Positions 468 through 55,062 of a stretch of 64,000 nt of DNA are shown one piece after another (within the stretch, counting starts at the first letter, position 1; each line of letters begins with the position of its first letter). The notes beneath the pieces are model-generated. The model was not told the origin of the DNA, searched no databases, and saw nothing but the letters and a program-made list of their open reading frames with translations. Source of the stretch: Pedobacter kyungheensis (lineage in GTDB: Bacteria; Bacteroidota; Bacteroidia; Sphingobacteriales; Sphingobacteriaceae); assembly GCF_000812965.1 (NCBI RefSeq), contig NZ_JSYN01000028.1, positions 1-64,000 of the forward strand. Direction: 5' to 3'. The translations under genes and the position numbers were made by a program.

Positions 468-3068
468 ATGAACTTCAACAATTTTACCATAAAAGCCCAG
501 GAAGCAGTTCAACAGGCTTCTGCAATAGCCCAGGGCAACCAGCAACAGGCTATTGAAACAGCACACCTGCTTAAAGGTTTGCTTACTGTTGATGAAAACG
601 TAGTTTCTTATGTATTAAAGAAGCTTAACGTTAACCTGAATACCTTAAATCAAAACCTTGATGCGGAGATTGCCAAATTCCCGAAAGTGAGCGGAAGCAA
701 TGTCTATCTGTCATCAAATGCCAATAGCGCTTTACAGAAAGCACAAACCTTTTTAAAAGAATTTAAAGACGAATTTGTTTCGGTTGAGCACTTATTATTG
801 GGCATTTTAGCTGTAAACGATTCTGTTTCGAAATTATTAAAAGAACAGGGCGTTAACGAAAAAGACCTTAAAAAAGCCATTATCGAGTTGCGTGGCGATA
901 ACCGCGTGACCGATCAAAATGCCGAAGCCACTTATCAGGCTTTGAGTAAATATGCCCGGAATTTAAACGAATATGCCGAGAGTGGAAAACTGGATCCGGT
1001 AATTGGCCGTGATGAAGAAATCCGCCGGGTGATTCAGATTTTATCGCGCCGGACCAAAAACAACCCGATTTTAATCGGTGAGCCTGGTGTGGGTAAAACG
1101 GCGATTGCCGAAGGTATTGCTTTCAGGATTATAAAAGGAGATGTACCCGAAAACCTGAAAAGCAAAACCGTGTATTCGCTGGATATGGGTGCTTTAATTG
1201 CCGGTGCAAAATATAAAGGCGAGTTTGAAGAACGCCTGAAAGCCGTTGTTAAAGAAGTTACCCAAAGTGATGGCGATATCATCCTGTTTATTGATGAGAT
1301 CCATACGCTGGTTGGTGCGGGTGGTGGCGAAGGTGCTATGGATGCCGCAAACATTTTAAAACCGGCTTTGGCTCGTGGCGAATTAAGGGCCATAGGTGCA
1401 ACTACTTTGGATGAATACCAGAAATACCTGGAGAAAGATAAAGCTCTTGAACGCCGTTTCCAAAAGGTAATGGTTGAGGAGCCTGATACCCAGGATGCCA
1501 TTTCGATCCTCCGTGGATTGAAAGAACGTTACGAAACCCACCACAAAGTGCGGATTAAAGACGAAGCCATTATTGCTGCCGTAGAAATGAGTCAAAGGTA
1601 TATTGCCGACCGTTTCTTACCCGATAAAGCTATCGATTTAATGGACGAGGCTGCTTCTAAGCTTCGCATGGAAATGGATAGCGTACCCGAAAATGTGGAT
1701 GCGCTAGAACGCGAAATTATGCGTCTGGAGATTGAACGCGAAGCCATTAAACGTGAAAAAGACGATAGAAAAGTTAAAGAGCTATCAGAAGAAATTGCCA
1801 ACTTATCGGCCGAACGCGATGAGTTTAAAGCCAAATGGCAAGGAGAAAAAGATTTAGTTGATGCGGTAAACAATCAGATTGAGCAGATTGAACACTATAA
1901 ATTGGAAGCCGAGCAGGCCGAACGTGCCGGAGATTATGGTAAAGTTGCCGAAATCCGTTACGGAAAAATTAAAGAAGCACAAGATAAGGTTGAACAGTTA
2001 AAAGCCGATTTAGAAAGCCAGCAAAGTGACAGCCGCATGTTGAAAGAAGAAGTTACAGCTGATGACATTGCAGGTGTAGTTGGCCGCTGGACAGGCATTC
2101 CGGTTACTAAACTGATTGCCAGCGAACGCGAAAAACTGCTGAATTTAGAAAATGAGCTGCATCAGCGTGTGGCTGGTCAAGACGAAGCTATTGAAGCCAT
2201 TTCTGATGCAATCCGCCGCTCGCGTGCCGGTTTGCAGGATAAACGTAAGCCAATTGGTTCATTCATATTTCTAGGTACTACCGGTGTGGGTAAAACCGAA
2301 TTGGCCAAAGCGTTGGCTGAGTTTTTATTTAACGATGAAAATGCTTTGACCCGTATTGACATGAGTGAATACCAGGAACGCCACGCGGTTTCGCGTTTAA
2401 TTGGTGCGCCTCCGGGATATGTAGGTTACGATGAGGGCGGACAACTGACTGAAGCTGTAAGGCGGAAACCTTACTCGGTAGTATTGCTTGATGAGATTGA
2501 AAAAGCGCACCCTGATGTGTTTAACATCCTGTTGCAGGTACTGGATGATGGCCGTTTAACTGATAATAAAGGCAGGACGGTAAACTTTAAAAATACCATC
2601 ATCATCATGACCTCTAATATTGGTGCACACTTGATTCAGGATAATTTCAAAAACTTAAGTGATGAAAACCGTGATGAAGTGATTGCCAAAACCAAAAATG
2701 AGTTGTTTGAAGTGTTGAAACAAACCATTCGTCCGGAGTTTTTAAACCGTATTGATGAGTTGATTATGTTTACCCCGTTGAACCGCAGCGAAATCAGGAA
2801 TATTGTAAGCCTGCAGTTTAAACAGGTGCAACATACCCTGGCCGAGATGGGCATTGAAATGGAAGCGAGCGACGAAGCTTTAGATTGGTTGGCGCAACTG
2901 GGCTACGACCCGCAGTTTGGGGCAAGACCACTGAAAAGGGTTATTCAGAAAAGAATCTTAAACGAGCTGTCGAAAGAGATATTGGCGGGCAAGGTAGATA
3001 AAGACAGTAAAATTAAGTTAGATATGTTCGATCATAATTTTGTGTTCCTGAACCAAAAGGCAGATTAA
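468..3068 (+). CDS. clpB: ATP-dependent chaperone ClpB
   Basis: Cytoplasmic AAA+ disaggregase that works with DnaK/DnaJ/GrpE to pull proteins out of aggregates through a hexameric pore. The 866-residue length is normal. Domains in order: N-terminal Clp repeat domain (about 1-145), first AAA+ module with Walker A GEPGVGKT at 204-211 and Walker B ILFIDEIH, coiled-coil middle domain (about 400-530, charged E/K/R heptads), second AAA+ module with Walker A GTTGVGKT at 603-610 and [11 protein letters not shown], then the small C-terminal domain. The coiled-coil middle domain separates ClpB from ClpA/ClpC. ATG start follows a purine-rich AAAGGGA. The gene stands alone and ends at a strong terminator 15 bases after the stop. 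Confidence 0.98.
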
Positions 3069-3080
3069 AACATAGTAATC

Positions 3081-3116
3081 AAAATCCCATAGATTAACTT
3101 CTATGGGATTTTTTTA
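3081..3116 (+). terminator. Intrinsic terminator after clpB
   Basis: AAATCCCATAGA pairs with TCTATGGGATTT around a short loop and is followed by a T-run. It lies 13 bases after the clpB stop codon. Confidence 0.9.
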
Positions 3117-3614
3117 TTTAAGATATAAGTTATTTAAAAATAAAAAGCACTCATCTCATTTAGATAAAATTCTCCTTTTGAGCTACGCTTCGTCATTATT
3201 GACAATACTTTAGATCACCCATAAATTAATGGCTCATGCATTTCCAACCAGCAAGGCCAAAGCACTGTTTCTCCGTTTTACTTTAATCCGGCCTAATAAA
3301 TTTTTCGGACTTTACTGCCTCCTCCGTCGCACCGACTTCGAAAGAAAAATTTTCAGCCGGCATTTTTTGTTTCTTTTTGATGCCAAAAAGAAAGAGCCCT
3401 TCGGCGGCGGCAAGCCGAGGCAAGGATGAGCGGGTAGGCAAAATAATCAATTGCAGAATTCATTGATTTTTATGCAATGACTTTAAATAGAAGTAACGAT
3501 TGCGTAATATACCCAGGTTAAAAATGTTCATTAAAGTAACTAACATGATAGTTTCATTTCTTGCTTTTTGTTTCAATAATGATTATTATTGATTACACAC
3601 AAAAACACAACATA
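3117..3614. other. Gene-free stretch with a hairpin-bearing repeat-like segment
   Basis: A short open frame at 3229-3429 has a composition unlike a protein and no recognisable domain, so I do not call it. The segment about 3225-3440 is denser in G+C than its flanks, contains a perfect hairpin at 3370-3393 and ends in a GC-rich run with CGGC/GCCG pairing. It resembles dispersed intergenic elements of Sphingobacteriaceae; that is recollection, not a search result. Confidence 0.45.
3370..3393. repeat. Perfect 10-bp-stem hairpin
   Basis: TTTCTTTTTG (3370-3379) and CAAAAAGAAA (3384-3393) are exact reverse complements around a four-base loop. No gene ends nearby, so a terminator role is unlikely; more likely part of a dispersed palindromic repeat. 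Confidence 0.6.
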
Positions 3615-4268
3615 ATGAAACCTAAATTAATCATCATGGCGCTGCTATGCGCCGTCAGTTGGCGCTGTTATGCCCAAACTGAAAAGGGAACAGGCTTTGC
3701 CGGCCTCAGCGTAAGCTTTGGCACTTCTAAACAAAACAGTTCGGCCCCAAGCCTCAACACCTTTACCGTAACTCCACGAGGAGGTTATTTTTTAGCCAAT
3801 AACCTGGCTATTGGCCTCGAGCTCCCTTTAAACCTTTCCAAATTACGTGGCGAAAGCTACATTTCATGGGATGAAGAAGATGGCCGCTACGAAGACCGTT
3901 ATGGCCCGAAAGAATTTAGCTTTGGCTTTTCTCCTTTTCTGCGCAAATATGTAGATGTAAAAGATCATTTTAAGTTCTTTATGCAGGCCAATCTGTTGCT
4001 TCAGGTTAACACTTTTAACCGGATTGATGAGGAAGGCTATTTAATTAAGACCGATGCCAAGGTAAAAGGATATGGGGCTAGCTTAAGTCCGGGCTTTACT
4101 TATTCCCTATCCAACCACACCACGCTCGAGTTTTCGTTTCCGATTGTAACGTTCTTTCATCAGAATTACTATGCTTCCGAATCGCTGTACAATTACGATA
4201 AGACCAATAACCTGAGACTGGCCTTACAGAACTTCACCCCTACATTTACCGTAAATTATCACTTTTAA
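3615..4268 (+). CDS. Secreted outer-membrane beta-barrel protein
   Basis: Predicted 217-residue outer-membrane barrel of the OMP_b-brl type. The Sec signal peptide is MKPKLIIMALLCAVSWRCYA with Q at +1, typical for this phylum. The mature part alternates aromatic and polar residues in strand-like stretches (FSFGFSPFLRKY, FKFFMQANLLLQV, LSPGFTYSL) and ends in YHF, a C-terminal aromatic as recognised by the BAM machinery. I chose the ATG at 3615 because it places the signal peptide at the N terminus; a longer reading from 3561 would put 18 unlikely residues ahead of it. The next gene starts 9 bases after the stop, so the two are probably one operon. Ligand unknown. Confidence 0.85.
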   Translation: MKPKLIIMALLCAVSWRCYAQTEKGTGFAGLSVSFGTSKQNSSAPSLNTFTVTPRGGYFLANNLAIGLELPLNLSKLRGESYISWDEEDGRYEDRYGPKEFSFGFSPFLRKYVDVKDHFKFFMQANLLLQVNTFNRIDEEGYLIKTDAKVKGYGASLSPGFTYSLSNHTTLEFSFPIVTFFHQNYYASESLYNYDKTNNLRLALQNFTPTFTVNYHF

Positions 4269-5040: not shown

Positions 5041-5697
5041 ATGAAAATGAAAAAACAATTATTACTTGCTGCTATGGCAGTTGGAATGTCGCTGTCTGCG
5101 TTTTCCCAAACAAAAGGTACAAATGCGCTAAGCTTTGGTGTAAACACTTACACAAACAAAAGCAAGGATAACAGCTACCAGGGAATCAATTACGAGAACA
5201 AAACTCAAAACAATACTTTTACACTGGGCTATGGCTATTTCTTTAAAGATAATAGCAAATTTGGATTGGATTTAACCTATGGGCTCAATAAATATAGTAA
5301 TACCAACAATTCTGAGCAACAACAAAAAAGCTATGGCGGAAATTTAAACTATCAACATTACTTCCCTATAGTAAAAACACTTTTCGCCTATGCAGGCGGT
5401 AGAGCTGGTTACACCCATAGTAAGACAGAAAACTCAAACACAAATCCATCTTATCCACAGACTAGCACCAATATTGGGAATCAATATAATGTTGGTGCTT
5501 ATGGCGGCATTACCTGGTTTATATCTAAAAGGTTTGCCTTAGAAACTTCTTTATTGAGTGCAGATTTTAGTTATAGCAAAACAAAGCAAACAGAATCAAC
5601 AAATCAAAGTTACTACTCAAACGAAAACACAAATTTCAATTTAAATACACAAGGCTTTATCAATAACCTTGGCTTTAAGATTTATATCCTATTTTAA
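5041..5697 (+). CDS. Outer-membrane beta-barrel protein
   Basis: 218 residues; signal peptide MKMKKQLLLAAMAVGMSLSAFS with Q at +1. The mature sequence is rich in Asn, Thr, Ser and Tyr with repeating strand-like patterns (FTLGYGYFFKDN, AYAGGRAGYTHS, YGGITWFISKRF) and ends in IYILF, an aromatic C terminus as in BAM substrates. Fits the porin-family/OMP_b-brl group, probably an eight-stranded barrel. Start could also be the second Met, two residues in; the signal peptide works either way. It is transcribed alone between two terminators. Specific function unknown. Confidence 0.82.
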   Translation: MKMKKQLLLAAMAVGMSLSAFSQTKGTNALSFGVNTYTNKSKDNSYQGINYENKTQNNTFTLGYGYFFKDNSKFGLDLTYGLNKYSNTNNSEQQQKSYGGNLNYQHYFPIVKTLFAYAGGRAGYTHSKTENSNTNPSYPQTSTNIGNQYNVGAYGGITWFISKRFALETSLLSADFSYSKTKQTESTNQSYYSNENTNFNLNTQGFINNLGFKIYILF

Positions 5698-5720
5698 CCT
5701 CAAAATCTCAATCAAAACAA

Positions 5721-5750
5721 AAAATCCCATCAGTGATGGGATTTTTTTGT
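5721..5750. terminator. Bidirectional terminator between convergent genes
   Basis: AAAATCCCAT (5721-5730) and ATGGGATTTT (5736-5745) pair around a short loop, with T-runs on both strands. It serves the barrel gene on the plus strand and the MFS gene on the minus strand. Confidence 0.85.
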
Positions 5751-5751
5751 T

Positions 5752-6954
5752 TTATTTCTTTTTGGTTTCGATATTAGGAAGGAAACCGGTGAGCAAACCG
5801 ATCAATGGCAAAAATGCACACACATTAAATACATATTCAATACTGGTAGAATCGGCCAGTTTACCTAAAAGCGCCGACCCTATCCCACCCATACCAAAGG
5901 CAAAGCCAAAAAACAAACCGGCTACCAGGCCAACTTTACCCGGAATAAGCTCTTGCGCATATACCAGTATAGCCGAAAATGCCGAAGCTAAAATCATCCC
6001 AATGGGTACAATTAAAACGCCTATCCAGAACAAGCTGGCATAAGGTAACAATAAAGCAAAGGGCGCAGTTCCTAAAATAGAAGCCCAGATTACATATTTC
6101 CGGCCTATTTTATCGCCAATTGGTCCGCCCAATAAGGTTCCGGCAGCTACCGAAAATAAAAATACAAACAGGTAAACCTGCGAAGTTTGTACCGAAACAT
6201 GGAATTTATCAATTAAATAAAAGGTAAAATAATTGGTTAAACTGGCCATGTAAAAGTATTTAGAGAAAATCAACAGCAATAAAATACATACCGAAAAGAT
6301 AACCTTGGTTCTCGAAAACTGATTAACAACGGTCTGAATATTAACTTTTTTACTTCTTGAAAGCATAAAACCTTTATACCAGTTGCCTACATAAGTTAAT
6401 ATGATGATGGCTAAAAGGGCAATAACTGAAAACCAAACTACACTAAACTGTCCATAAGGTACAATAATCCAGGCCGCCAACAATGGACCTAAAGAGCTGC
6501 CTGCATTGCCACCTAACTGAAAAACAGATTGTGCCAGGCCTCTCTTCCCTCCTGATGCGGCATGCGCCATACGCGAAGCTTCAGGATGAAAAATAGAAGA
6601 ACCAATACCGATAAAACAAACCGATAACAAGATGGTATAAAAGTGCGTGGATTGCGAAAGCGACACCAAACCAATTAGCGTAAAGCCCATACCAACGGCA
6701 AGCGAATAAGGTTGTGGTTTTTTATCGGTATACAAGCCCACAAAAGGTTGCAGTAAAGAAGCCGCCAGCTGAAATGTTAGTGTAATGAGTCCAATTTGCG
6801 AGAAACTAAGCTGATAGCTGGTTTTAATGATGGGGTAAATTGCCGGAATGAGCGACTGAATGGTATCATTTAAAAGGTGCGAGAAACTTAAAGCAAACAG
6901 GATCGGAAAAACAGTTTTTTCAATAATGGCTGTGGTAGAGGTATTTTCGGTCAT
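5752..6954 (-). CDS. fsr: MFS transporter, fosmidomycin-resistance (Fsr) type
   Basis: 400-residue major-facilitator exporter of the inner membrane with about 12 hydrophobic segments. The segment GIGSSIFHPEASRMAH (about residues 116-131), followed by GLAQSVFQLGGNAGSSLGP, is characteristic of the Fsr subfamily, which exports fosmidomycin and possibly other compounds; the natural substrate here is unknown. ATG start at 6954 lies about 20 bases downstream of a TATTTTTG promoter element. The gene is convergent with the upstream barrel gene and divergent from the astacin gene. Confidence 0.85.
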   Translation of the reverse strand: MTENTSTTAIIEKTVFPILFALSFSHLLNDTIQSLIPAIYPIIKTSYQLSFSQIGLITLTFQLAASLLQPFVGLYTDKKPQPYSLAVGMGFTLIGLVSLSQSTHFYTILLSVCFIGIGSSIFHPEASRMAHAASGGKRGLAQSVFQLGGNAGSSLGPLLAAWIIVPYGQFSVVWFSVIALLAIIILTYVGNWYKGFMLSRSKKVNIQTVVNQFSRTKVIFSVCILLLLIFSKYFYMASLTNYFTFYLIDKFHVSVQTSQVYLFVFLFSVAAGTLLGGPIGDKIGRKYVIWASILGTAPFALLLPYASLFWIGVLIVPIGMILASAFSAILVYAQELIPGKVGLVAGLFFGFAFGMGGIGSALLGKLADSTSIEYVFNVCAFLPLIGLLTGFLPNIETKKK

Positions 6955-6974
6955 AGCAAAATGTTATTATGCGC

Positions 6975-6982
6975 CAAAAATA
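6975..6982 (-). promoter_or_regulatory. Candidate -7 element TATTTTTG for the Fsr-type gene
   Basis: On the minus strand this is an exact match to the Bacteroidota -7 consensus TAnnTTTG. Transcription would start about 14 bases before the ATG. I see no clear TTTG at the -33 position. Confidence 0.5.
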
Positions 6983-7219
6983 AGGATTATATTTTTATAC
7001 CATGTTTCACTGAATCAGACACTTGCCCTTTACAAATTTGAATAGGGAAATTTAAATACATCAAAGTAAATATTAAAATACAACTATATTTGGTTAAAAT
7101 ACTACTAAACGGCCGCATATTTTCTATATAATTTCGAAATAGCCTTTAACTTTAAAAACATAATAAACTATATACCAACGCACTACCATCATTTTATAAC
7201 CAAATACAACCTAAACCTT

Positions 7220-8521
7220 ATGAAAACAAACAAAATTAAGATCAGGCTGGCGTTATGCCTGGCCACTGGTATTATGCTTACCATTTTTAGCTGTAAGAAA
7301 GTAAATGAAACAAATTCCGTTCCCGATAAAAGCCGTCCGGATCAAACCTATACTTTTACTATAGATGGGAACAAAATCATCATCAAGGAAATTAACGGGA
7401 TATACTATTTTGCTGATGATATTACACTTAGCCCACAGCAATTTAACCTCTTAAAAGCAAACAGCAATAAATCGTTATCGACTACCGAAAGGGGGCTGAT
7501 TATCAACAACCTGGTAAAAAGATGGACCAACGGAATTGTTTACTATGACCTTACCGGCCTGGGTGCAGATACTTCTTGGACATTAAAAGCTATGCAGAAC
7601 ATTTCGAGGGTATCGCCAGTTGTTTTTATCAAGAGAACAAATCAGGCCAATTACATCAATTTTGTAAAAGGTAGTGGAAACAGCTCATCAGTGGGCATGG
7701 TTGGCGGTGCCCAAAACCTCAATATATACAATTACAATTATCCGGGTATATTGATGCACGAAATATTCCATGCGCTGGGTATAAACCACGAACAGTGCCG
7801 GCCCGATCGCGACAGCTATGCTATTTTTTACCCTGAAAATGTTCCTGACGATAAAGAGTTTAATTTCAATAAACTATCGGCCAGTAGCAATACTACAGTT
7901 GGTTCATTCGATTTCGAATCGATTATGATGTATGAGCCTTATGCTTTCTCCAACACTGGCCAGCCCAGCATAACCAAACTGGATGGTTCGACTTATCAAT
8001 CCAGTTACCCCACAAGTAATTTAACTCCCAGCGATATTGCTGCAGTGAACCAGATGTACAGTGGTTTTACCTATGTAGGCTTACCTGCCAATACCAATTA
8101 TGAAATTGCAACGGCCCTTGACAACAATAAACTCCTTAACGTATCGGGTGGCTCGTCAAGTGATGGTGCGCAAATCATTCTTTATACTGACGGTAATTCG
8201 AACAATGCGCGGTGGAGTGTAAGCAAAAATGCAGAGGGTTATTACCAGCTATCGCCTTTAAATGCGCCTGGTAAAGTACTTACCGTAGTAGGTGCCGCTA
8301 TTGCCAACGGTACTAAACTCGAAATAAGAACCAATAGCAATGCCACCGCCCAGCAATTTAACATTATTCCGGTAGAAGGCGGTTATTATACGCTATCACC
8401 ACGCAATGTGCCTTCAAAAAATGTTGATGTACCAGGTAGCAATACAGCCAACAGTACTTTACTTAACATCTGGTCGGAAGGCGGTGGAAATAACCAGAAA
8501 TTTAAATTCAACACTTTTTAA
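7220..8521 (+). CDS. Astacin-type (M12A) metalloprotease lipoprotein with C-terminal ricin domain
   Basis: 433 residues. Lipoprotein signal ending IFSC, then a spacer. The zinc motif HEIFHALGINHEQCRPDRD starts at His180 and matches the astacin signature HExxHxxGxxHExxRxDRD; the Met-turn SIMMYEP lies at 234-240. The astacin catalytic domain spans about 95-285. From about 293 to the end is a ricin-type beta-trefoil (repeated blocks around NARWSV, AQQFNI and NNQKFKF), usually carbohydrate binding. The expected role is a cell-surface endopeptidase tethered to, or recognising, a glycan or glycoprotein. Flanked by the divergent Fsr-type gene and a downstream terminator, so monocistronic. Confidence 0.92.
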   Translation: MKTNKIKIRLALCLATGIMLTIFSCKKVNETNSVPDKSRPDQTYTFTIDGNKIIIKEINGIYYFADDITLSPQQFNLLKANSNKSLSTTERGLIINNLVKRWTNGIVYYDLTGLGADTSWTLKAMQNISRVSPVVFIKRTNQANYINFVKGSGNSSSVGMVGGAQNLNIYNYNYPGILMHEIFHALGINHEQCRPDRDSYAIFYPENVPDDKEFNFNKLSASSNTTVGSFDFESIMMYEPYAFSNTGQPSITKLDGSTYQSSYPTSNLTPSDIAAVNQMYSGFTYVGLPANTNYEIATALDNNKLLNVSGGSSSDGAQIILYTDGNSNNARWSVSKNAEGYYQLSPLNAPGKVLTVVGAAIANGTKLEIRTNSNATAQQFNIIPVEGGYYTLSPRNVPSKNVDVPGSNTANSTLLNIWSEGGGNNQKFKFNTF

Positions 8522-8545
8522 TTTAATCAAATCCTAAAATGATGG

Positions 8546-8581
8546 AAAAAGCAAACGGGTGGGTATCCGTTTGCTTTTTTT
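8546..8581 (+). terminator. Intrinsic terminator after the astacin gene
   Basis: AAAAGCAAACGG pairs with CCGTTTGCTTTT around an eight-base loop, followed by a T-run. Confidence 0.9.
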
Positions 8582-8706
8582 CATTTAAGCCCACCTCTCC
8601 TGCTCAACTGCCAGATGAATTAAAAAAACTGCCAGATTGTACCATTTAAAAGTCTGACATTTATACAAAAAAAGTCAGATTGTCAATTTGTCATAGCCAA
8701 AAAATT

Positions 8707-8722
8707 AATCAATCGATTGATT
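8707..8722. promoter_or_regulatory. Perfect 16-bp palindrome AATCAATCGATTGATT
   Basis: An exact palindrome about 120 bases upstream of the sigma-54-like element. It could be an operator or activator site for the barrel gene; no factor can be named. Confidence 0.35.
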
Positions 8723-8827
8723 TTTAGTCACACGAAAATAATATTGAGTTAACACTAAACTTACATCTAACTATAAATTAAGGGGTTGACATAAAACTGA
8801 TTTTTTGATGACTTAAAGGAAGTTTTT

Positions 8828-8843
8828 TGGCACAAGTGTTGAC
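8828..8843 (+). promoter_or_regulatory. Sigma-54 (RpoN)-like promoter
   Basis: TGGCAC at 8828-8833, a five-base spacer, then TTGAC at 8839-8843. The RpoN consensus is TGGCAC-N5-TTGC(A/T), so the -24 box and spacing match and the -12 box differs at its C. Expected transcription start is near 8855, about 65 bases before the ATG of the barrel gene. Confidence 0.5.
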
Positions 8844-8919
8844 TTTTAGGCAAATATAGTCAGACATTAAAATAGTAAAACTGGCTATATTTTTAACACA
8901 AAATATAATTAATAAAACA

Positions 8920-9528
8920 ATGAAAAAACTATTATTATCATTAGTAGCAGTAGCAGGTTTAGCTTTTGGTGCAAAAGCACAAACTGAAAAAGGAAAATTT
9001 ATTTTAGGCGGTAATGTTGGTTTTAATTCAACCAAAGTAGAAGGTGCTGCTAAATCTGATATCGACTTTAGCGTAATCCCAAGTGTTGGTTATTTTGTAG
9101 GCAACAACTTTGCCATCGGTACTGGTGTAGGTTACACTTATGCTAAAACTGTAAGTGGTGCAGCTCCACACCAAATTGGTGCTTTCCAGGTTTCGCCTTT
9201 TGGCCGTTACTATGTTGGTTTATCAGAGCAATTTAAATTCTTCGGACAATTATCAGTTCCTATGGCTTTCGGTACCGTAAAAGCAGTTGATGCTAACGGC
9301 GATACAGGTGCTAAAGTAGGTACTACTACTTCAATCGGTGTAAACATTGCTCCGGGTTTTGCTTTCTTCCCAACCAAAAGAATCGGTATCGAAGTATCGG
9401 TTAACGGTTTAGGTTATGCAAACAACCAAATCAAAGCTGAAGCAACTGGTGCAAAAACTACCACCAACTCTTTCGGTTTAGAAGCTAATACTTTCGCGCC
9501 AAAATTAGGTGTACAGTTCCACTTTTAA
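8920..9528 (+). CDS. Outer-membrane beta-barrel protein, probably highly expressed
   Basis: 202 residues; signal peptide MKKLLLSLVAVAGLAFGAKA with Q at +1. Eight strand-like segments (GKFILGGNVGFN, FAIGTGVGYTYA, QVSPFGRYYVG, KFFGQLSVPMAFG, IGVNIAPGFAFF and others) and a final GVQFHF fit an eight-stranded OMP_b-brl barrel. It shares layout and motifs (QTEKG after the signal; SPFxRxYV; FKFFxQ; PGF) with the barrel encoded at 3615-4268, so the two are paralogues. Biased codon use (GGT, GCT, ACT rich) and the long regulatory region suggest high, controlled expression. Ligand unknown. Confidence 0.88.
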   Translation: MKKLLLSLVAVAGLAFGAKAQTEKGKFILGGNVGFNSTKVEGAAKSDIDFSVIPSVGYFVGNNFAIGTGVGYTYAKTVSGAAPHQIGAFQVSPFGRYYVGLSEQFKFFGQLSVPMAFGTVKAVDANGDTGAKVGTTTSIGVNIAPGFAFFPTKRIGIEVSVNGLGYANNQIKAEATGAKTTTNSFGLEANTFAPKLGVQFHF

Positions 9529-9573
9529 TTAAATCCTTCCGGCAGGAAGTATTTAACTAATGACTTTTTTTCG

Positions 9574-9610
9574 AAAAGCGCCCCGTATACCAACGGGGCG
9601 CTTTTTGTTT
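9574..9610. terminator. Strong terminator between convergent genes
   Basis: AAAAGCGCCCCGT (9574-9586) pairs over 13 bp with ACGGGGCGCTTTT (9593-9605) around a six-base loop, then a T-run. Its end overlaps the stop codon of the minus-strand M28 gene, which it may also terminate. Confidence 0.9.
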
Positions 9611-11261
9611 ATTTCTTTTCTCTAATGGCTTTAAATTCCGAGCCTGTTTTCCACTTTGGAAAGGTATCTTCATTGCTTAAACGGTAACCCAAATCAAAAA
9701 GCATCCGTACATCTGCTACAATACCCGATAAATCCCAGGTTTTGGCATCAAAATTATCCTGTGGTGAGTGGTAGCGCATTTTGGTAAAATCAGCCACCTG
9801 TTTTAATCCCCATTCCCTGCCATGCTTAACATTATCTACACCAGAACCCGTAAATAAAGCCGGAACACCAACTTTAGCCAGGTTAAAATGATCGGAACGG
9901 TAATACAGGCCAGATGATGGAACGGGATCGGGAACAATTACCCTTCCCTGTTTTTTAGCAGCTTCGGCCGCATAATCTTCGAGTTCTGACTGACCAAAAC
10001 CATACACCACAATATCTTTGGTTTTACCAGCTATCCCCATCATGTCCATATTGATATTGGCAACCGTTTTAGCCAGCGGAAAAACCGGATGTTTGGCATA
10101 GAATTCAGAACCCAATAAACCCTGCTCTTCTGCAGTATAGGAAATAAATAAGATGGTGCGCTCAGGATTTTTGGGCAGTTTTTTAAAAGCTGAGGCAATT
10201 TCGAATAACGAAGCCACTCCGGTGGCATTATCAACTGCACCATTGTAAATCGAATCGCCTTTAACTTTTTCGCCTATCCCTAAATGATCCCAATGGGCTG
10301 AATAAATAATGGCTTCATCATTACGCTTGTTGCCCGGTATAGTGGCCAATACATTATAAGTGACCGACTTTTTAATGGTGTTTTTAACCTTAAGTGAAGT
10401 GGTAACATTTAAATCAACAGCCTTAAACCCTTTTTTACGCGCGCTTAAAGCCAGCTGATCGAAGGATTTTCCATCCAGTGCAAAAAGCTGCCTCGCTTTG
10501 TCTAAAGTAATCCAGCCTTCAACCACTGCCCTGTTCATGCCATTATCGGCCGATTGGAGATTGAGTTTGGATTTAGACCAGCCGCTTCTTACTACTGTCC
10601 AGGGATAAGCAGCAGGCTCGGTATCGTGTACAATAATAATCCCTGTAGCGCCTTGTCTGGCAGCCTCTTCAAATTTATAGGTCCAGCGGCCGTAATAAGT
10701 CATATTTTTGCCTTTAAACAAGGTCGAATCGGCAAATCCCGGATCGTTAATCAGTACTACTACGGTTTTTCCTTTCACATCTAAACCGGCATAATCATTC
10801 CAGCCATATTCGGGTGCAACAATACCGTAGCCGGCAAAAACCAAAGGCGAATTGCTAATGCTTACCTCCTCCTGCACGCGCCTTGTACCTGCAACAAAAT
10901 CGGTTAAATAATTTAGCGCAAGCGAAGTTGTTTTCCCTTTCAATACCATTTTATCTTCAGGCACCGATTTGATCTCAACCATGGGTACTTCCTGAAAATA
11001 ACTTCCGTTATTGCCGGGTGCTAATCCCAGTTGCTCAAACTGTGCCTTTAAATAGTTAATGGTTTTGGTTTCGCCCTCGGTAAAGGGTTTTCTTCCCTGC
11101 AAACTATCGGCAGCAATAACCGAAAGGTATTGTGTTAAACTGCCATCATTAATGGCTTTTATGGCTAAAGAATCAGCAGAAACAGCGGCTGTTTTTGTCT
11201 CTTGCCTGCAGGACGCGAAAAATAAGAGCGCACAAACCGAAAACAAACATGATTTTTTCAT
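9609..11261 (-). CDS. M28 family metallopeptidase lipoprotein with PA domain
   Basis: 550 residues. Lipoprotein signal ending FFASC (Cys18). A protease-associated (PA) insert occupies about 135-260. The M28 core carries two-zinc ligands: His323 and Asp325 in AHWDHLG, Asp344 in AVDNATG, the Glu pair at 378-379 (TAEEQG), Asp in NMDMMG and a late His in YRSDHFN. The family removes N-terminal residues from peptides; this one would act in the periplasm or at the surface. A 52-base gap separates it from the upstream S8 gene on the same strand, so co-transcription is possible but not certain. Confidence 0.92.
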   Translation of the reverse strand: MKKSCLFSVCALLFFASCRQETKTAAVSADSLAIKAINDGSLTQYLSVIAADSLQGRKPFTEGETKTINYLKAQFEQLGLAPGNNGSYFQEVPMVEIKSVPEDKMVLKGKTTSLALNYLTDFVAGTRRVQEEVSISNSPLVFAGYGIVAPEYGWNDYAGLDVKGKTVVVLINDPGFADSTLFKGKNMTYYGRWTYKFEEAARQGATGIIIVHDTEPAAYPWTVVRSGWSKSKLNLQSADNGMNRAVVEGWITLDKARQLFALDGKSFDQLALSARKKGFKAVDLNVTTSLKVKNTIKKSVTYNVLATIPGNKRNDEAIIYSAHWDHLGIGEKVKGDSIYNGAVDNATGVASLFEIASAFKKLPKNPERTILFISYTAEEQGLLGSEFYAKHPVFPLAKTVANINMDMMGIAGKTKDIVVYGFGQSELEDYAAEAAKKQGRVIVPDPVPSSGLYYRSDHFNLAKVGVPALFTGSGVDNVKHGREWGLKQVADFTKMRYHSPQDNFDAKTWDLSGIVADVRMLFDLGYRLSNEDTFPKWKTGSEFKAIREKK

Positions 11262-11313
11262 ATTAAGATGTTATTTTCTGAAAAATACGAAGAAATAGGG
11301 AGAATATGATCAG

Positions 11314-14139
11314 TTACCTCTTTATCAACTTGAACTTCTTAACCTGCTGTCCATCCTGTACAATTACCCCTACATATACACCGGTTGCCAATGCATTTAA
11401 CCCGAAGCGGTTAGTGCTGGATGCTTTTTCATCAAAAACCTTTTGCCCCAGCATATTGTAAACAGATAGATTATAATCTTTAAAAGAACCACTTAAAATG
11501 GTAAGGTAATCGCTTACCGGATTGGGATAAAAAGAAAAATCGTTCTCTTTAAGGAATACCGCGGAAGCGAGATCGCTGCTATACTTACCGTTGGCGGTTT
11601 CGAAGGTAACCCGGTAAAACTGGATCCCCAGTTTGGGGTTTTCGTCCAAAATACTGTAATCCAGTTGATTTTGAACGGGCTGTGTTTGTTTTAAAACCGT
11701 ATAGGTATTTACGCCCGTCTGTTTCTCCCAAATGATGTTCCTGATATCGAGCGTGGTGCCAATGCTCAGGTCGAGTCTGATTTTATCGTCGCTGGTATTA
11801 TTGGCCGATAAACTCCTTACATAACAGGCAACCCCCTGCTGGGTATAATCGATGGTATAGGTCTTTAACCCTGTAAAATTAGTTCCGTTGGCAGCTACAG
11901 CGAAATATTTACTGTTTACCTTAGCCATTTCAAGCTTGATTAAAGTATCAGTTACGTTTAAAACGGGCGACAATACATTGTTAACCAAATTGTAAACGGT
12001 ATAATCTTTTGCGCCAGGCTGTGGATTCCAGTTTAAAACAATGCCATCGTTGCATACATAGCCTACTCTCAATATGCGGGGGCTCGAAATTGTAAAAGTT
12101 GGACTCAAAATCACATTGCCTTCTACTTCCATTTTTAAAATGGCTTTGGCAAAACGATCTGGTGCATTCCAGTTATACAATCCCCTGCTTAGATCAACAC
12201 CTGCGGCGATAGTTTCCCAGGTTTTACCCTCATCATAACTTATAGATAAATTGCCCGATTGGGAATTATAGGTATTATCCCAACGGAAATAATTGTTTTC
12301 ACCGGCAAAAAAACTGCCTTCTTTTTCGGGCGTGATGAAAGTAAAGGTATTTTTAAGCCTGTAGCTATAGGCCAAAGCAAAGTTCTGCTGGCTGCCCTGT
12401 GTAATTCTATCCCCTTTTACGTGAATCTTAAAACTACCAGCCGCCGGATTTTCTAAAGTAACCTGCTGAATGTTGTTAACTAAATCGGCCTTACGCTCTG
12501 CTGCTGCAGAAAGTGAATTTAAATTGGCCGCAGCATTTAAAACCCATGGTAAGGTCAGGCTACCACCTGGGTTTTCGAGGCTCAGATCTAAACCATTTAC
12601 CAGGCCCTGTGCAGCATTTACTACCGCAGCCGGATCGTTCCATACCAGCGTAATTTTAACTTCAGCAACATTGGCCGGTATAGTTATAGGAGTAACCAAA
12701 TCCTGGGCTTTGGCTACCGTATAAACAGCCACCCTGTTCTCATCCAACGTTTTTAGCGCCTGGGCTACATTTAATTTACCATAGCCGTATACATAATCTA
12801 CGTGTGGCGTTCCTAAATCGTCGGCAGCATTAATTAAAGTTGCTTTAATAAGCGAGGCTGAAGGGGCCTTTTTAAATTTCTGGTGATAAAATTGCTCCAA
12901 AAGAATCACTGATCCACTGGTAATGGCAGCAGAACCGGATGTACCATCTTCTCCCAAAGATACCAGCTCGGGTTTTACACGTCCATCGTAAGCCGGCCCC
13001 TTGCTACTTAAATTTTCAGCAACATTTTCGCGGTTTATTCCCCCAATAACCAATACGTTTTTGGCCTGTTTAAAATTCCCCGTTAAATTAGCCCTGGCGG
13101 TTATACCCTGATAAAAGCCTGCAGATGGCGTTTGTGTACCACTATTCCCTGCCGAAAAAACATGGATTAAAGTATCGGTTTCAAAAACCTGCTTATCGTA
13201 TGCAGCAGCTTCAATACCGTAGTTATTATCGATACCCACACCATACGAATGGTTTTGAACGCGGATTTGAAACTTATTTAAATCGGCCGGCAAATCGGGC
13301 AGTAGATTATCGAAACTCGAAAAAGCCAGCTTTGCTTTGGGTGCCGCGCCCAGGCCACGGATAAATGAGTTACCATTGCCAATGGCTAAAGTTGCCATGG
13401 TAGTGGCATGCGCAGTAGCTTTGCCCGTAAGTGTAGCTCCGGGCACTGTTTTACCCAAAATATCGAGATCGGTTACATCGTACATGTCTTCTTTAAGTGA
13501 AAGGTTAATGCCCGTTCCGTCAATGCCCGGGAACAGGCTATGCGCGTTGGCTATCTGGTTGAGGCCCAAATCTAAACCATTAATTACTACTTCGGTTTTT
13601 GCCTGTGATACAATATCTGCATACAATACCTCATCGTAAGCTAAAACCTCTTGTAAGTCATCAGGTGAGATATAAACGGTGCAGATATTGTTATCCTTAT
13701 CAACCGATTTAACCTTTAAATTTTTGAGAAAAGCCGGTGAAACAGCTAAATTTTTAACAGCCAGTCTAACCAGTAACGAATCGCTTTTTTTGCTGTTTTT
13801 ATTCAGCAGTTTCATTAACCCATCGCTTACCTTCCACAAACCACTGGCTACCCCCTGGTAAACAAGACTCGGTGCAAGCGCTGAAACTGCACTTTTCTCT
13901 GCAATAAAGTAGTCGCCGGCGAGTTTCTTTTTGGGCTTTAACAATTGAATTTCACTTGCGGTTAGGGCATGGTTAAACCTGACTAATAACAGTTCATTTG
14001 GCTGCAATAATTCGATATTGCCTTTTGCAGAAAGAAATTTTTGAAAATTTTTATCTACTCCACCAGGTTGTGACTGTGCGTTTAAAGCACCTACACAAAG
14101 ACATAATAATATAACTAAAAATACAGGACTGACTTTCAA
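11314..14139 (-). CDS. Subtilisin-like S8 peptidase with T9SS type A sorting domain
   Basis: 941 residues, secreted. Signal peptide about 1-21 (GALNA, Q at +1). The S8 domain spans about 190-465: His244 in TAHATT, oxyanion Asn332 in SAGNSG, nucleophile Ser401 in GTSGSAA. The canonical GxGVxVAVxD position for the catalytic Asp holds Glu217, with Asp218 next to it. Beta-rich modules follow to about 860, then a type A sorting domain (about 868-941: FYPNPVSDYL, MLGQKVF, ALATGVYVG, KKFKLIKR), the signal for T9SS export and cell-surface anchoring. The start is TTG at 14139: no ATG lies upstream in frame and this codon places the signal peptide correctly. Confidence 0.9.
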   Translation of the reverse strand: MKVSPVFLVILLCLCVGALNAQSQPGGVDKNFQKFLSAKGNIELLQPNELLLVRFNHALTASEIQLLKPKKKLAGDYFIAEKSAVSALAPSLVYQGVASGLWKVSDGLMKLLNKNSKKSDSLLVRLAVKNLAVSPAFLKNLKVKSVDKDNNICTVYISPDDLQEVLAYDEVLYADIVSQAKTEVVINGLDLGLNQIANAHSLFPGIDGTGINLSLKEDMYDVTDLDILGKTVPGATLTGKATAHATTMATLAIGNGNSFIRGLGAAPKAKLAFSSFDNLLPDLPADLNKFQIRVQNHSYGVGIDNNYGIEAAAYDKQVFETDTLIHVFSAGNSGTQTPSAGFYQGITARANLTGNFKQAKNVLVIGGINRENVAENLSSKGPAYDGRVKPELVSLGEDGTSGSAAITSGSVILLEQFYHQKFKKAPSASLIKATLINAADDLGTPHVDYVYGYGKLNVAQALKTLDENRVAVYTVAKAQDLVTPITIPANVAEVKITLVWNDPAAVVNAAQGLVNGLDLSLENPGGSLTLPWVLNAAANLNSLSAAAERKADLVNNIQQVTLENPAAGSFKIHVKGDRITQGSQQNFALAYSYRLKNTFTFITPEKEGSFFAGENNYFRWDNTYNSQSGNLSISYDEGKTWETIAAGVDLSRGLYNWNAPDRFAKAILKMEVEGNVILSPTFTISSPRILRVGYVCNDGIVLNWNPQPGAKDYTVYNLVNNVLSPVLNVTDTLIKLEMAKVNSKYFAVAANGTNFTGLKTYTIDYTQQGVACYVRSLSANNTSDDKIRLDLSIGTTLDIRNIIWEKQTGVNTYTVLKQTQPVQNQLDYSILDENPKLGIQFYRVTFETANGKYSSDLASAVFLKENDFSFYPNPVSDYLTILSGSFKDYNLSVYNMLGQKVFDEKASSTNRFGLNALATGVYVGVIVQDGQQVKKFKLIKR

Positions 14140-52039: not shown

Positions 52040-52097
52040 ATGCGCCAATATTTTCAAATAAAAATAATTAACTGATTATCAACTAATTAAAACAAAT

Positions 52098-52164
52098 ACT
52101 ATAAAAATAGTTTGAAAACTAGTTTTATAGTATTAACTTCATTTAAGCAAACTATAAAAATAGT
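52098..52164. promoter_or_regulatory. Three BlaI-type operator boxes
   Basis: ACTAT-N4-ATAGT occurs at 52098-52111 (exact), 52118-52131 (ACTAG variant on the left arm) and 52151-52164 (exact). The first two also form one large inverted repeat with 19-bp arms and one mismatch (52096-52114 with 52117-52135). The third ends five bases before the blaI ATG. The position fits autoregulation by the BlaI-like repressor. Confidence 0.7.
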
Positions 52165-52168
52165 TACC

Positions 52169-52540
52169 ATGATAAAAGAACTCACAAAAGCAGAAGAACA
52201 GATTATGCTTATCCTTTGGGAAATGGGCGAAGCCCTTGTAAAAGATGTAATTGAGAAGATGAACGAGCCCAAACCGGCTTACAATACGGTTTCAACGGTA
52301 ATCAGGGTTTTAGAAACCAAAGGCTTTGTCGATCATAAAGCCATTGGTAATACCTATATCTACTTCCCTATTATCAAAGAAACTGATTATAAACGCTTTG
52401 CTTTAAATAAAGTGATGAACAATTATTTCGAAAACTCTTACGAAAGTCTGGTTTCATTCCTGGTAAATGAAAAAAGTATGGGTACCAAAGAACTTGATGA
52501 AATTATTCAATTGGCCGAAAAACTTAAAAACAACAAGTGA
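52169..52540 (+). CDS. BlaI/MecI/CopY family repressor
   Basis: 123 residues from the ATG at 52169; longer readings run through the operator boxes. Winged-helix signature LTKAEEQIMLILWEMGEALVKDVIEKM, recognition helix AYNTVSTVIRVLETKGFV, wing IGNTYIYFPII, and the C-terminal dimerisation helices. It would repress its own operon until cleaved or displaced through the M56 sensor encoded next. Stop and next start overlap (TGATG), so the pair is translationally coupled. Confidence 0.93.
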   Translation: MIKELTKAEEQIMLILWEMGEALVKDVIEKMNEPKPAYNTVSTVIRVLETKGFVDHKAIGNTYIYFPIIKETDYKRFALNKVMNNYFENSYESLVSFLVNEKSMGTKELDEIIQLAEKLKNNK

Positions 52541-55062
52541 TGAACTGGTTATATTACTTACTCGAAGCCAATCTGTATCTCGTAATATTTTACGGTTTTT
52601 ACAGATTGTTCCTTCATCGCGAAACCTTTTACGGATTAAATAGAAGTTATTTAATTTTCAGCTCAATAGTGGCTTTTCTTCTTCCATTTTTTCAGCTCGG
52701 TTTCTTAAAAGCACCTGTAATCGAACAAATTACCGCAGCCCCCACCCCTGAAATGGTTGTCAGCCCAGTCATAGTGACAGAAAACCTGCCATTAGAAAGT
52801 TATCAGTCCAGTATCTTCACCATTGATAATGCGATTATCGCGATTTATAGTCTGGTGACTATTGTATTTCTGCTTAAAATGCTTTTCAACTTATCCAAAA
52901 TCATCAGTATGCGCAAACTACCATCTGTTAAACTGGATAATGGAGTCAAATTAATAGATCTAAAGGGTTCTAAAATAGCTTTTTCATTCTTCAAGCTCCT
53001 CTTTCTTGATCCTGATTTATCCGAAAAAAATACCATACTGAAACATGAACTGGTTCACATTAAACAAAAACATAGTTTGGATGTCTTGTTATTCGAAATC
53101 ATCCAAATCATCAACTGGTTTAACCCAATCGTTTATCTCGTTAAAAAAGATATTAAGTTAATTCACGAGTATCTGGCCGACGAAGAAACAACTAAGTACG
53201 ATGTAGAAAAATATCACTACGCCATGTTTTTGATCCAAAATTCAACTGGTATCCAAAACCTAACCTTAACTAACCAAATATTCAGTTCATCAATTTTAAA
53301 AAAGAGAATTAATATGTTAAACCAAAAGAAATCAGCGCGTTGGGCCAGGCTCAAACTGCTACTTGTGTTGCCAGTTACTGCAGGGATATTGTGTATTTCT
53401 ACCATGGCTTTTACAAAAGATTATGGTTTTGTGGACTTGATGCCAGAGGACTTATCTGGAAAAATTAGTCCTTTAGATAGCACAATAGTCAGGGAAATAC
53501 TCACAAAAAGTGAATTAGTTGCTACCAATCTAAATCCAATGCCCAACTCGACAGATAATGTACATATTGAAGCAAATACTAAAGATATGTTCGCCGTTTA
53601 TTTACACAATACTAAGACCGGTCAAAGCCTCATGGAATTAGATTGGAGTCTAATACCAAATGGTACAAATATTAAAGAAGGATACTGTTATAAAGGGACA
53701 AAAGAATTTTCTAAAATTGATAGTGCTATTAACATGGCAATACGACTAAAAAAAACATTAGCTACAGTAAAATATGGAGATTTGAGAAAAATTGAACTAA
53801 AAGATAATCAAAAATTAAAAAGCCAGCTTATAATGCAGGATAAAGGTATATTACCACCACCTGCCATTAGTAAAACATATTTTCCACCTTATAAAAGAGA
53901 TGGTAAATACAATTATGTTTCACTAGAGAAAAGGGTCGTAATTATCAATGGAAAGGAAATAGCAGATAAAAATAAGTTTTATGGTGCTGCAGACGCAACC
54001 GAGATCAAGTTTTTGAAGACAAAAGAAGCAACTGAAAAGTATGGCAAAACTAAAGGGCAATTTGGTGCAGTAGAAATTACAGGAAAAAACGTAGTTTTTT
54101 GTTTGCAGCCACCTATCGTAAAGAAAGATCAGATTAAGTTACCTCCATCTGTAGATAGTCAAACTTCTTTTTATCCAAAGAATGAGTATAGCAGTAAAAC
54201 TCAAAAAGCAGTGATGATTGATCAGAGGTATATCGTAATTAATGGCAAACCAATTACCGATAATAGCACTTTTTATGGTGTTAGGAATACAAATTCAGTA
54301 AAATATCTCAATCAATTGGCTGCTACAAAGAAATACGGCCAAGAAAAGGGCAAAAATGGAGCAGTAGAAATTACAGGAGATAATTTAATGTATTTAGCTA
54401 AGGTTTCTCCACCTCCGCTTCCAGTAGAAAGAGATACAACTAAAAAGAAAAAAATACAAAAGGTAATCATTAAGGGATATAAAAAAGCTATGGAAGTTAA
54501 AACGGTTGAAGGCTATCCCATTCAAACCAAAGACCAAACAACCAGCCTCAAGGCTGCTCCGCAATCTGATAAAAGCTTAAAAGAGGTAACCATTAAAGCC
54601 TTGGAGGTTAAAAAAGTACAGGGTTATCCGATTAAACAGAAAGATAAAACTATAGACATAAAACCAGCACCAAAATCTGATAAAAATTTAAAAGAAGTTA
54701 CGATTAAAGCTTACGAAAAAGCAATGGATGCAAAATCGGATGGTGAAATAAAGGAAATTAGGATAAAAGAGAGCCCAACAAAGGTAGATGAGAAGAAAGG
54801 ATCTAGAATGGTCCTTGAAATTCATCAAGATGAAATAATTAAGAGTAAAAATGACAAATTAAATGTTAGTATACCAGAAGGTGCTGCTGCCGAATTGACA
54901 ATTTACAACTCCACTTATGATAAAGCATTTTACCAAACTACTAATTACAAAAATGATTGGTATGCTAAAGAACTTCCAAACGGAAAGTATCCATACAACT
55001 TCGTATTCAGAAAAAATGGAAAGGTAGTTGGTGGAAAAAGTGGTTTTGTAGAGATCAAATAA
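52540..55062 (+). CDS. M56 (BlaR1-like) membrane metallopeptidase with duplicated TonB-plug-like modules
   Basis: 840 residues from the ATG at 52540. Membrane helices at about 1-20, 36-56, 100-122 and 268-288; zinc motif HELVH at 169-173 and a third ligand region (HEYLADEE) as in M56 peptidases. The last helix is followed by about 550 exported residues: two modules about 102 residues apart (from about 459 and 561), each reading VxINGKxIxDxxxFYG, then KYGxxKGxxGAVEITG, which resembles the plug segment of TonB-dependent receptors; then two copies of KxLKEVTIKA/GYPIxxKDxT (about 640-740) and a final beta domain. No penicillin-binding sensor domain is present. Signal sensed is unknown. Confidence 0.88.
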   Translation: MNWLYYLLEANLYLVIFYGFYRLFLHRETFYGLNRSYLIFSSIVAFLLPFFQLGFLKAPVIEQITAAPTPEMVVSPVIVTENLPLESYQSSIFTIDNAIIAIYSLVTIVFLLKMLFNLSKIISMRKLPSVKLDNGVKLIDLKGSKIAFSFFKLLFLDPDLSEKNTILKHELVHIKQKHSLDVLLFEIIQIINWFNPIVYLVKKDIKLIHEYLADEETTKYDVEKYHYAMFLIQNSTGIQNLTLTNQIFSSSILKKRINMLNQKKSARWARLKLLLVLPVTAGILCISTMAFTKDYGFVDLMPEDLSGKISPLDSTIVREILTKSELVATNLNPMPNSTDNVHIEANTKDMFAVYLHNTKTGQSLMELDWSLIPNGTNIKEGYCYKGTKEFSKIDSAINMAIRLKKTLATVKYGDLRKIELKDNQKLKSQLIMQDKGILPPPAISKTYFPPYKRDGKYNYVSLEKRVVIINGKEIADKNKFYGAADATEIKFLKTKEATEKYGKTKGQFGAVEITGKNVVFCLQPPIVKKDQIKLPPSVDSQTSFYPKNEYSSKTQKAVMIDQRYIVINGKPITDNSTFYGVRNTNSVKYLNQLAATKKYGQEKGKNGAVEITGDNLMYLAKVSPPPLPVERDTTKKKKIQKVIIKGYKKAMEVKTVEGYPIQTKDQTTSLKAAPQSDKSLKEVTIKALEVKKVQGYPIKQKDKTIDIKPAPKSDKNLKEVTIKAYEKAMDAKSDGEIKEIRIKESPTKVDEKKGSRMVLEIHQDEIIKSKNDKLNVSIPEGAAAELTIYNSTYDKAFYQTTNYKNDWYAKELPNGKYPYNFVFRKNGKVVGGKSGFVEIK

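Follow-up and report, generated by a model that had tools for sequence, protein, structure and literature searches.

A BlaI/M56 antirepressor pair of Pedobacter kyungheensis with TonB-receptor-like pieces in its predicted periplasmic sensor

Introduction

What does a protease of the BlaR1 type respond to when its tail bears no beta-lactam-binding domain? This question is raised by a locus of Pedobacter kyungheensis, analyzed here within a window of 64,000 nucleotides (assembly GCF_000812965.1, contig NZ_JSYN01000028.1, positions 1 to 64,000 of the forward strand). At this locus the gene for a BlaI/MecI-type repressor is coupled to the gene for an M56 membrane protease, the latter termed P0001 throughout the paper. 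Our favored explanation, to which we assign a probability of about 0.42, is that P0001 serves as the antirepressor of BlaI with a sensor mimicking a Ton-dependent receptor, and that the Ton machinery or a receptor-handling partner triggers induction of the pair together with an M23 peptidase. All coordinates refer to the window and, unless stated otherwise, to the plus strand.

The blaI-m56 Locus and the Anatomy of P0001

The repressor gene blaI (52169..52540, MIKELTKAEEQ..., Penicillinase_R 5.2e-31), for which the mechanical list of open reading frames (ORFs) gives a start further upstream at a TTG, shares its last base with the first base of the M56 ATG. The gene for P0001 (52540..55062) is an open frame of 840 amino acids with a Peptidase_M56 match of 7e-15 in Pfam, where four more families were listed, each under its cut-off. 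Relatives of P0001 were found encoded at 40 loci in other records, and an alignment of 40 M56 sequences (A1) was used for comparison. The zinc motif HELVH (residues 169-173, 53044..53058) contains H169, E170 and H173, all of them invariant in 40 of 40 A1 sequences. Membrane helices were predicted by hydropathy at about residues 38-56, 98-116 and 273-291, the last one encoded at 53356..53412, and the tail of about 550 residues behind it is taken as periplasmic by analogy to BlaR1. With its M56 domain, HExxH motif, membrane helices, adjoining BlaI gene and upstream dyads, P0001 shows the features of an M56/BlaR1-type antirepressor. The overall similarity to characterized BlaR1 is low, with 43.9 bits for NCBIfam blaR1_generic (cut-off 400 bits) and a phmmer E-value of only 0.12 for P0001 versus 8exp. 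No beta-barrel family was matched in P0001 by Pfam at E≤1. For residues 290-440, where model confidence was mostly under 50, no fold is claimed.

A BlaI/M56 pair would first of all suggest an ordinary beta-lactam sensor controlling resistance. However, Pfam found no penicillin-binding or transpeptidase family in P0001 at E≤1, in agreement with the first-pass annotation of the window, which had already reported the lack of such a domain. Likewise, no penicillin-binding family was among the 20 families found at E≤0.01 in 50 M56 ORFs of the phylum, and where the exact operator dyad occurs outside the locus, it stands before the gene for an M23 peptidase. Beta-lactam sensing by P0001 was rejected because of the absent binding domain, and the resistance explanation as a whole is considered extremely improbable.

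Two Plug-Half Modules in the Predicted Sensor

According to the first-pass annotation, the tail contains two copies of an INGKxIxD...KYGxxKGxxGAVEITG module resembling the plug of TonB-dependent receptors. Both copies were recovered by profile search and profile-profile alignment, module 1 at residues 459-520 (53914..54099) and module 2 at residues 557-618 (54208..54393), the second one additionally by fold comparison. They share 46% identity (blastp E 2.7e-21). By profile search the module was found in 17 of 42 M56 ORFs (L045 had given no M56 ORF), or in 16 of 40 when the window copy and one paralog were left aside; two suspect stretches being excluded, the copies numbered 22. Aligned with the C-terminal half of 14 SusC plugs from the same genome, the profile of these 22 copies yielded an hhalign Prob of 94.8 and an E-value of 5e-8, while the best of 60 column-permuted controls reached Prob 2.2 and E 0.021, and the reversed profile 1.26 and 0.042. 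Across the family, matches were found in 77 of 81 genomes (E≤1e-3), both in frames of M56 size and in longer ones of 1000-1200 residues, a length matching SusC receptors. Among 30 loci taken from this genome search were 19 M56 genes (window included), 5 frames of more than 700 residues without HExxH and 6 small ones.

Structure prediction pointed weakly in the same direction. The AlphaFold model of module 2 had a mean predicted local distance difference test value (pLDDT) of 85.1. In a Foldseek search with it, ranks 1-6 were all TonB-dependent receptors, at weak E-values of 0.11 to 2.2, and a second aligner (VIA), run on 96 chains preselected by Foldseek, returned TonB-dependent receptors for all 9 entries with Z≥2 (Z 3.4-2.0). 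A lack of plug-fold similarity in the models would have spoken against the proposed resemblance; instead, such receptors top the weak matches. The Pfam Plug model gave no match on P0001 at E≤1. The homology of the modules to the C-terminal half of the TonB-receptor plug is therefore regarded as real but remote, since this half alone is present and the Pfam model misses the protein. Thus, the plug resemblance noted in the first pass stands for the C-terminal half, on the basis of the controlled profile-profile alignment, the retrieved receptor-size frames and, more weakly, the fold ranking; it does not extend to a whole plug recognized by Pfam. A third candidate module at residues 363-427 was pulled in by iteration alone and was not counted; searched singly with the profile of 22 copies, it reached 5.5 bits (i-Evalue 7.8e-4).

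Ton-Box-Like Repeats

Two KEVTIKA/GYPI repeats had also been described. Indeed, GYPI was found twice and KEVTIKA at positions 681 and 718 of the protein. Each KEVTIKA overlaps a Ton-box-like LKEVTIK, at residues 680-686 (54577..54597) and 717-723 (54688..54708). For comparison, PMC7782687 gives DEVVVTG as the Ton box of Bt1763, a SusC protein. With a matrix built on 13 SusC boxes from the P. kyungheensis genome, sites of at least 6 bits were found in 16 of 41 M56 tails versus 1.36 expected from shuffles, and in 1 of 41 N-terminal parts (paralog L006 omitted from the tail counts). A number of the top-scoring sites are no more than 7 residues away from the C-terminus, for example LREVVVIGYGA in L039. 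In P0001 this matrix scored residues 717-723 with 7.1 bits (p 0.085). A second matrix, made after the first one and hence a second try, was composed of 7 position-picked boxes from other receptors of the genome. It gave 15.6 bits for each of the two P0001 sites; the best score was reached by 1 of 2000 shuffles and both sites together by 0 of 2000, while the next best among 42 other ORFs of the window scored 9.6 bits. The pLDDT of the surrounding residues 624-772 was under 50, for which reason the stretch is taken as disordered by prediction. Like a Ton box, the repeats present an LxEVxV-type strand motif in a segment predicted to be flexible. Sensing by contact with TonB-linked proteins, as suggested in the first pass, would find a concrete handle in these repeats.

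The C-Terminal Domain

The C-terminal residues 734-840 (54739..55059) were modeled as a beta-sandwich, confidently from about residue 772, which resembles the CHU_C-like C-terminal domains of type IX secretion system (T9SS) substrates. In VIA the first match, at a Z of 7.0 and on a par with many FN3/Ig folds, was 8glk_D, a domain of a T9SS substrate, and the substrate domains 8glj_D and 8gl8_D and the mirolase C-terminal domain 8qb1 were matched as well. Pfam detected CHU_C (PF13585) in 5 of 40 A1 sequences at E≤1 and not in P0001; examined singly, L012, L016 and L031 were over the cut-off and L008 was below it (23.0 versus 27 bits). These observations would agree with a scenario in which this domain is the sensor, P0001 displays a type IX secretion substrate signal and the protein reports the status of the T9SS. 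However, the matches tie with ordinary FN3/Ig folds, and Pfam calls CHU_C neither in P0001 nor in 35 of 40 A1 sequences, so we judge this scenario improbable.

BlaI Operator Dyads and an M23 Peptidase as Predicted Output

Three predicted BlaI operator dyads precede blaI. Dyad 1 (52097..52112) has one mismatch to AACTATAAAAATAGTT, dyad 2 (52117..52132, minus strand) has two, and dyad 3 (52150..52165) is an exact AACTATAAAAATAGTT located three bases 5' of the blaI start codon. At the sequence level this arrangement is conserved: every one of 40 orthologous loci has, upstream of blaI, a dyad deviating by one mismatch or none, and two or more dyads within three mismatches. A degenerate version, AACTANNNNNNTAGTT, was tried and discarded. 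It occurred at 16 places versus 33 for the reversed control, and for this reason the near-exact dyad alone was used. Similarly, the 14-base core with one mismatch allowed gave 27 matches versus 111 in the control, and for this reason no targets were called from single-mismatch sites elsewhere.

Without mismatch, the core ACTAYANAAATAGT (14 bases) was found three times in the whole genome, twice at the window locus and once at C7:190735. The latter site lies 46 bases upstream of an M23 peptidase gene (Peptidase_M23 8.3e-12); the N-terminus of the encoded peptidase resembles a signal peptide. Therefore, the M23 peptidase is the predicted output of the system. The gene was found in 28 of 60 genomes of the genus (source genome included), and starts were available for 27 of these 28 loci, L237 having given none. 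A dyad with at most one mismatch preceded the M23 gene in 14 of the 27 (0 expected from shuffles), namely in the source genome and in the 13 orthologs closest to it, at a near-constant distance of 41-46 bases from the start. Synteny alone would not account for the dyad, since in L189 the M23 gene has a different upstream neighbor. The exact 16-mer dyad was detected in 27 of 60 genus genomes; 30 loci fetched for it comprised 21 blaI loci, L211 being counted by its M56 gene, 8 M23 genes and the single locus L209.

The five paralogous blaI promoters contained no dyad within three mismatches of the window dyad, which suggests that the regulons are insulated. By eye, each of these paralogs (L067-L070, L115) seems to have its own distinct upstream dyad, for example AACTAACCAATTAGTT and TACGATATATTCGTA.

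M56 Tails in Homologs, Paralogs and the Phylum

The tails of M56 proteins turned out to be exchanged between near relatives. Over residues 1-290, P0001 is 89% identical to its counterparts in L007 (Pedobacter borealis) and in L008. The L008 tail has one module, and that of L007 ends at residues 551-639 in a DUF1573 match (29.3 bits, cut-off 26.1), a sensor swap between near species. TonB_C was matched in 6 of 40 A1 sequences, and of three examined singly two were over the cut-off and one below; other homologs have proline-rich tails.

In the source genome itself, 7 M56 matches, 6 BlaI genes over the cut-off and 130 plug matches at E≤0.01 were counted. The C45 paralog (L067) combines M56, TonB_C (78.8 bits) and Plug (35.3 bits, cut-off 23.9) in a single chain. 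Two paralogous M56 proteins at C12 bear Amidase_3 tails. Genes for receptor-like proteins (PF14905) adjoin the C12 and C3 M56 genes, and the C5 M56 gene is adjoined by a receptor-like gene with a Plug match of 23.6 bits, over the cut-off only with its neighbors. Two of these neighborhoods showed further peculiarities. Beside and after the M56-TonB_C-Plug gene of L067 (G000:C45:44000-53500), at 1756-4047, small and apparently secreted proteins are encoded, one of 204 amino acids with two Plug domains and no barrel, one of 249 with two TonB_C domains and one of 236 with a plug-like half and TonB_C. In L068 (G000:C12:431000-446000), at 5042-11827, one BlaI gene is followed by the two M56-Amidase_3 proteases and a receptor-like outer-membrane gene, the second protease having a sub-threshold LptD_N match.

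For the phylum, a Pfam census was made of 50 M56 ORFs from other genomes, leaving out the G184 frame, which contains a stop, and five matches below the cut-off. TonB_C was found in 21 of them, TonB_2 in 5, Plug in 5, CarbopepD_reg_2 in 2, CarboxypepD_reg in 2 and ExbD in 1. In the corresponding alignment A6, the ExbD match of one M56 protein was at 8.2e-10, and the CarbopepD_reg_2 matches fell in two proteins. The first-pass remark that plug-like tails recur on M56 proteins of Bacteroidota is thus borne out for plug and Ton-system domains, by the TonB_C and Plug counts and by the paralog with both. Twenty census proteins of the same class were also scanned singly, with Plug in 5 (4 over the cut-off) and TonB_C in 2. 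Module and plug profiles matched 6 of the 50 ORFs, all from same-class genomes. A BlaI gene was present at 47 of 47 fetched M56 loci of the phylum, about 1.4 kb off in L283 and L298.

Seen from the wall, the same data allow for another explanation. The tail might sense peptidoglycan or general wall stress, like BlaR1 in spirit. In this case, the plug-like and Ton-box-like pieces would have been borrowed for folding or as spacers, with no role in Ton function, and the M23 peptidase would act in wall repair. An M23 peptidase as predicted target, the Amidase_3 tails of two paralogs and the many homologs in which a proline-rich, module-less tail goes along with an unchanged dyad would all fit. However, the tails of M56 proteins repeatedly contain plug halves, TonB_C or Ton-box-like motifs, in some cases combined in one chain, and a few have CarboxypepD_reg, which would hardly result from random borrowing. 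We regard wall stress as input as somewhat less likely than the receptor-mimicking sensor.

Discussion

In the explanation that we favor, a receptor-mimicking sensor, the periplasmic part of P0001 would imitate the periplasm-facing part of a receptor by two plug C-terminal halves, a probably disordered stretch containing two Ton-box-like strands and an Ig-like domain. BlaI bound to the three dyads would repress blaI-m56 and, elsewhere in the genome, the gene for the secreted M23 peptidase. The tail may be engaged by, or released from, the C-terminal domain of TonB or another receptor-handling envelope protein. This event would render the M56 zinc site active, BlaI would be cleaved, and the pair as well as the M23 murein endopeptidase would be induced. 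The domains with their homologies and the conserved dyads are established at the sequence level. We infer that the dyads mediate repression, that the M23 enzyme is active and that Ton engagement is the input, while cleavage of BlaI is presumed by analogy to BlaR1/MecR1, as outlined in PMC7593790. P0001 probably watches the state of the cell envelope, because its sensor pieces are Ton-machinery-like and its predicted control covers itself and a wall-cutting enzyme.

We are aware of the fact that several observations weigh against this explanation. The fold matches of module 2 are weak (Foldseek E of at least 0.11, VIA Z of at most 3.4) and come from candidates chosen by Foldseek. The best Ton-box-like site of P0001 was not significant with the SusC matrix alone (p 0.085), and with all 20 boxes combined it was reached by 39 of 2000 shuffles, both sites together by 0 of 2000. 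L007, nearly identical in residues 1-290, is without either plug module, and the modules are absent in 24 of 40 homologous ORFs (L029 and L034 among them being incomplete), yet the dyad is kept at 40 of 40 loci. We count this as the strongest objection: the modules are dispensable for the BlaI/M56 pair as such, and the common signal may extend beyond Ton, or different tails may follow different partners. With TonB_C in only 2 of 20 same-class proteins, this domain on M56 lies mostly outside the class of the window genome. Within the window there is no other plug-domain gene; one is located on the same contig at 141971. Among the 13 more distant M23 orthologs a dyad was found in only 2, at three mismatches. 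The M23 peptidase is the sole further regulon member predicted in the genome, and a gene of receptor type follows the exact dyad in only 1 of the 30 fetched loci. In this one, L209, the site at 1501 lies 50 bases before a gene with CarbopepD_reg_2, a receptor-type N-terminal domain.

Compared with known systems, the locus shares with BlaR1/MecR1 and BlaI/MecI of Staphylococcus (8exp; outlined in PMC7593790) the repressor gene coupled to an M56 zinc protease with a tail past the last helix. In contrast to BlaR1/MecR1, P0001 is without the class-D beta-lactamase-like sensor and has plug halves, Ton-box-like repeats and an Ig-like domain in its place. With SusC-type and other TonB-dependent receptors it has the C-terminal half of the plug and a Ton-box-like motif in common; unlike them, it is anchored in the inner membrane, has no barrel and only half a plug, and the Ton-box-like motifs come after the plug modules, where receptors have them before. 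Chu et al. reportedly described in 2007 TonB proteins with a MecR1-like N-terminal extension, i.e., M56 joined to TonB_C. Like these, P0001 fuses the M56 membrane part to a Ton-system domain, but it bears plug halves and Ton-box-like repeats where they bear TonB_C. Regulation tied to TonB-dependent receptors is also a feature of cell-surface signaling; there, according to PMC7593790, sensing is done by the receptor itself and directed at anti-sigma factors, while here an M56/BlaI pair is found. In the open-access literature, covered mostly by titles and the beginnings of abstracts, no description of an M56 protein with plug modules or Ton boxes was found. PMC10470040 lists a P. gingivalis BlaI gene, with a locus tag neighboring that of an M56 gene, as changed with hemin, which is too thin to use.

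One may go further and regard the BlaR1 family of Bacteroidota as a general sensor of envelope machines. TonB C-terminal domains, plug halves, Ton boxes, receptor N-terminal domains and ExbD would then be exchangeable decoys of Ton parts, reading the load or the sabotage of TonB transport and answering by peptidoglycan remodeling. We consider this generalization rather unlikely. To our knowledge, it is unexplained how the receptor-rich Bacteroidota gauge their Ton capacity. With its receptor-like pieces, its defined dyad and the M23 gene as predicted target, the BlaI/M56 pair would open such gauging to experiments in a laboratory strain of Pedobacter. It would also extend the BlaR1 family beyond drug sensing to surveillance of the envelope.

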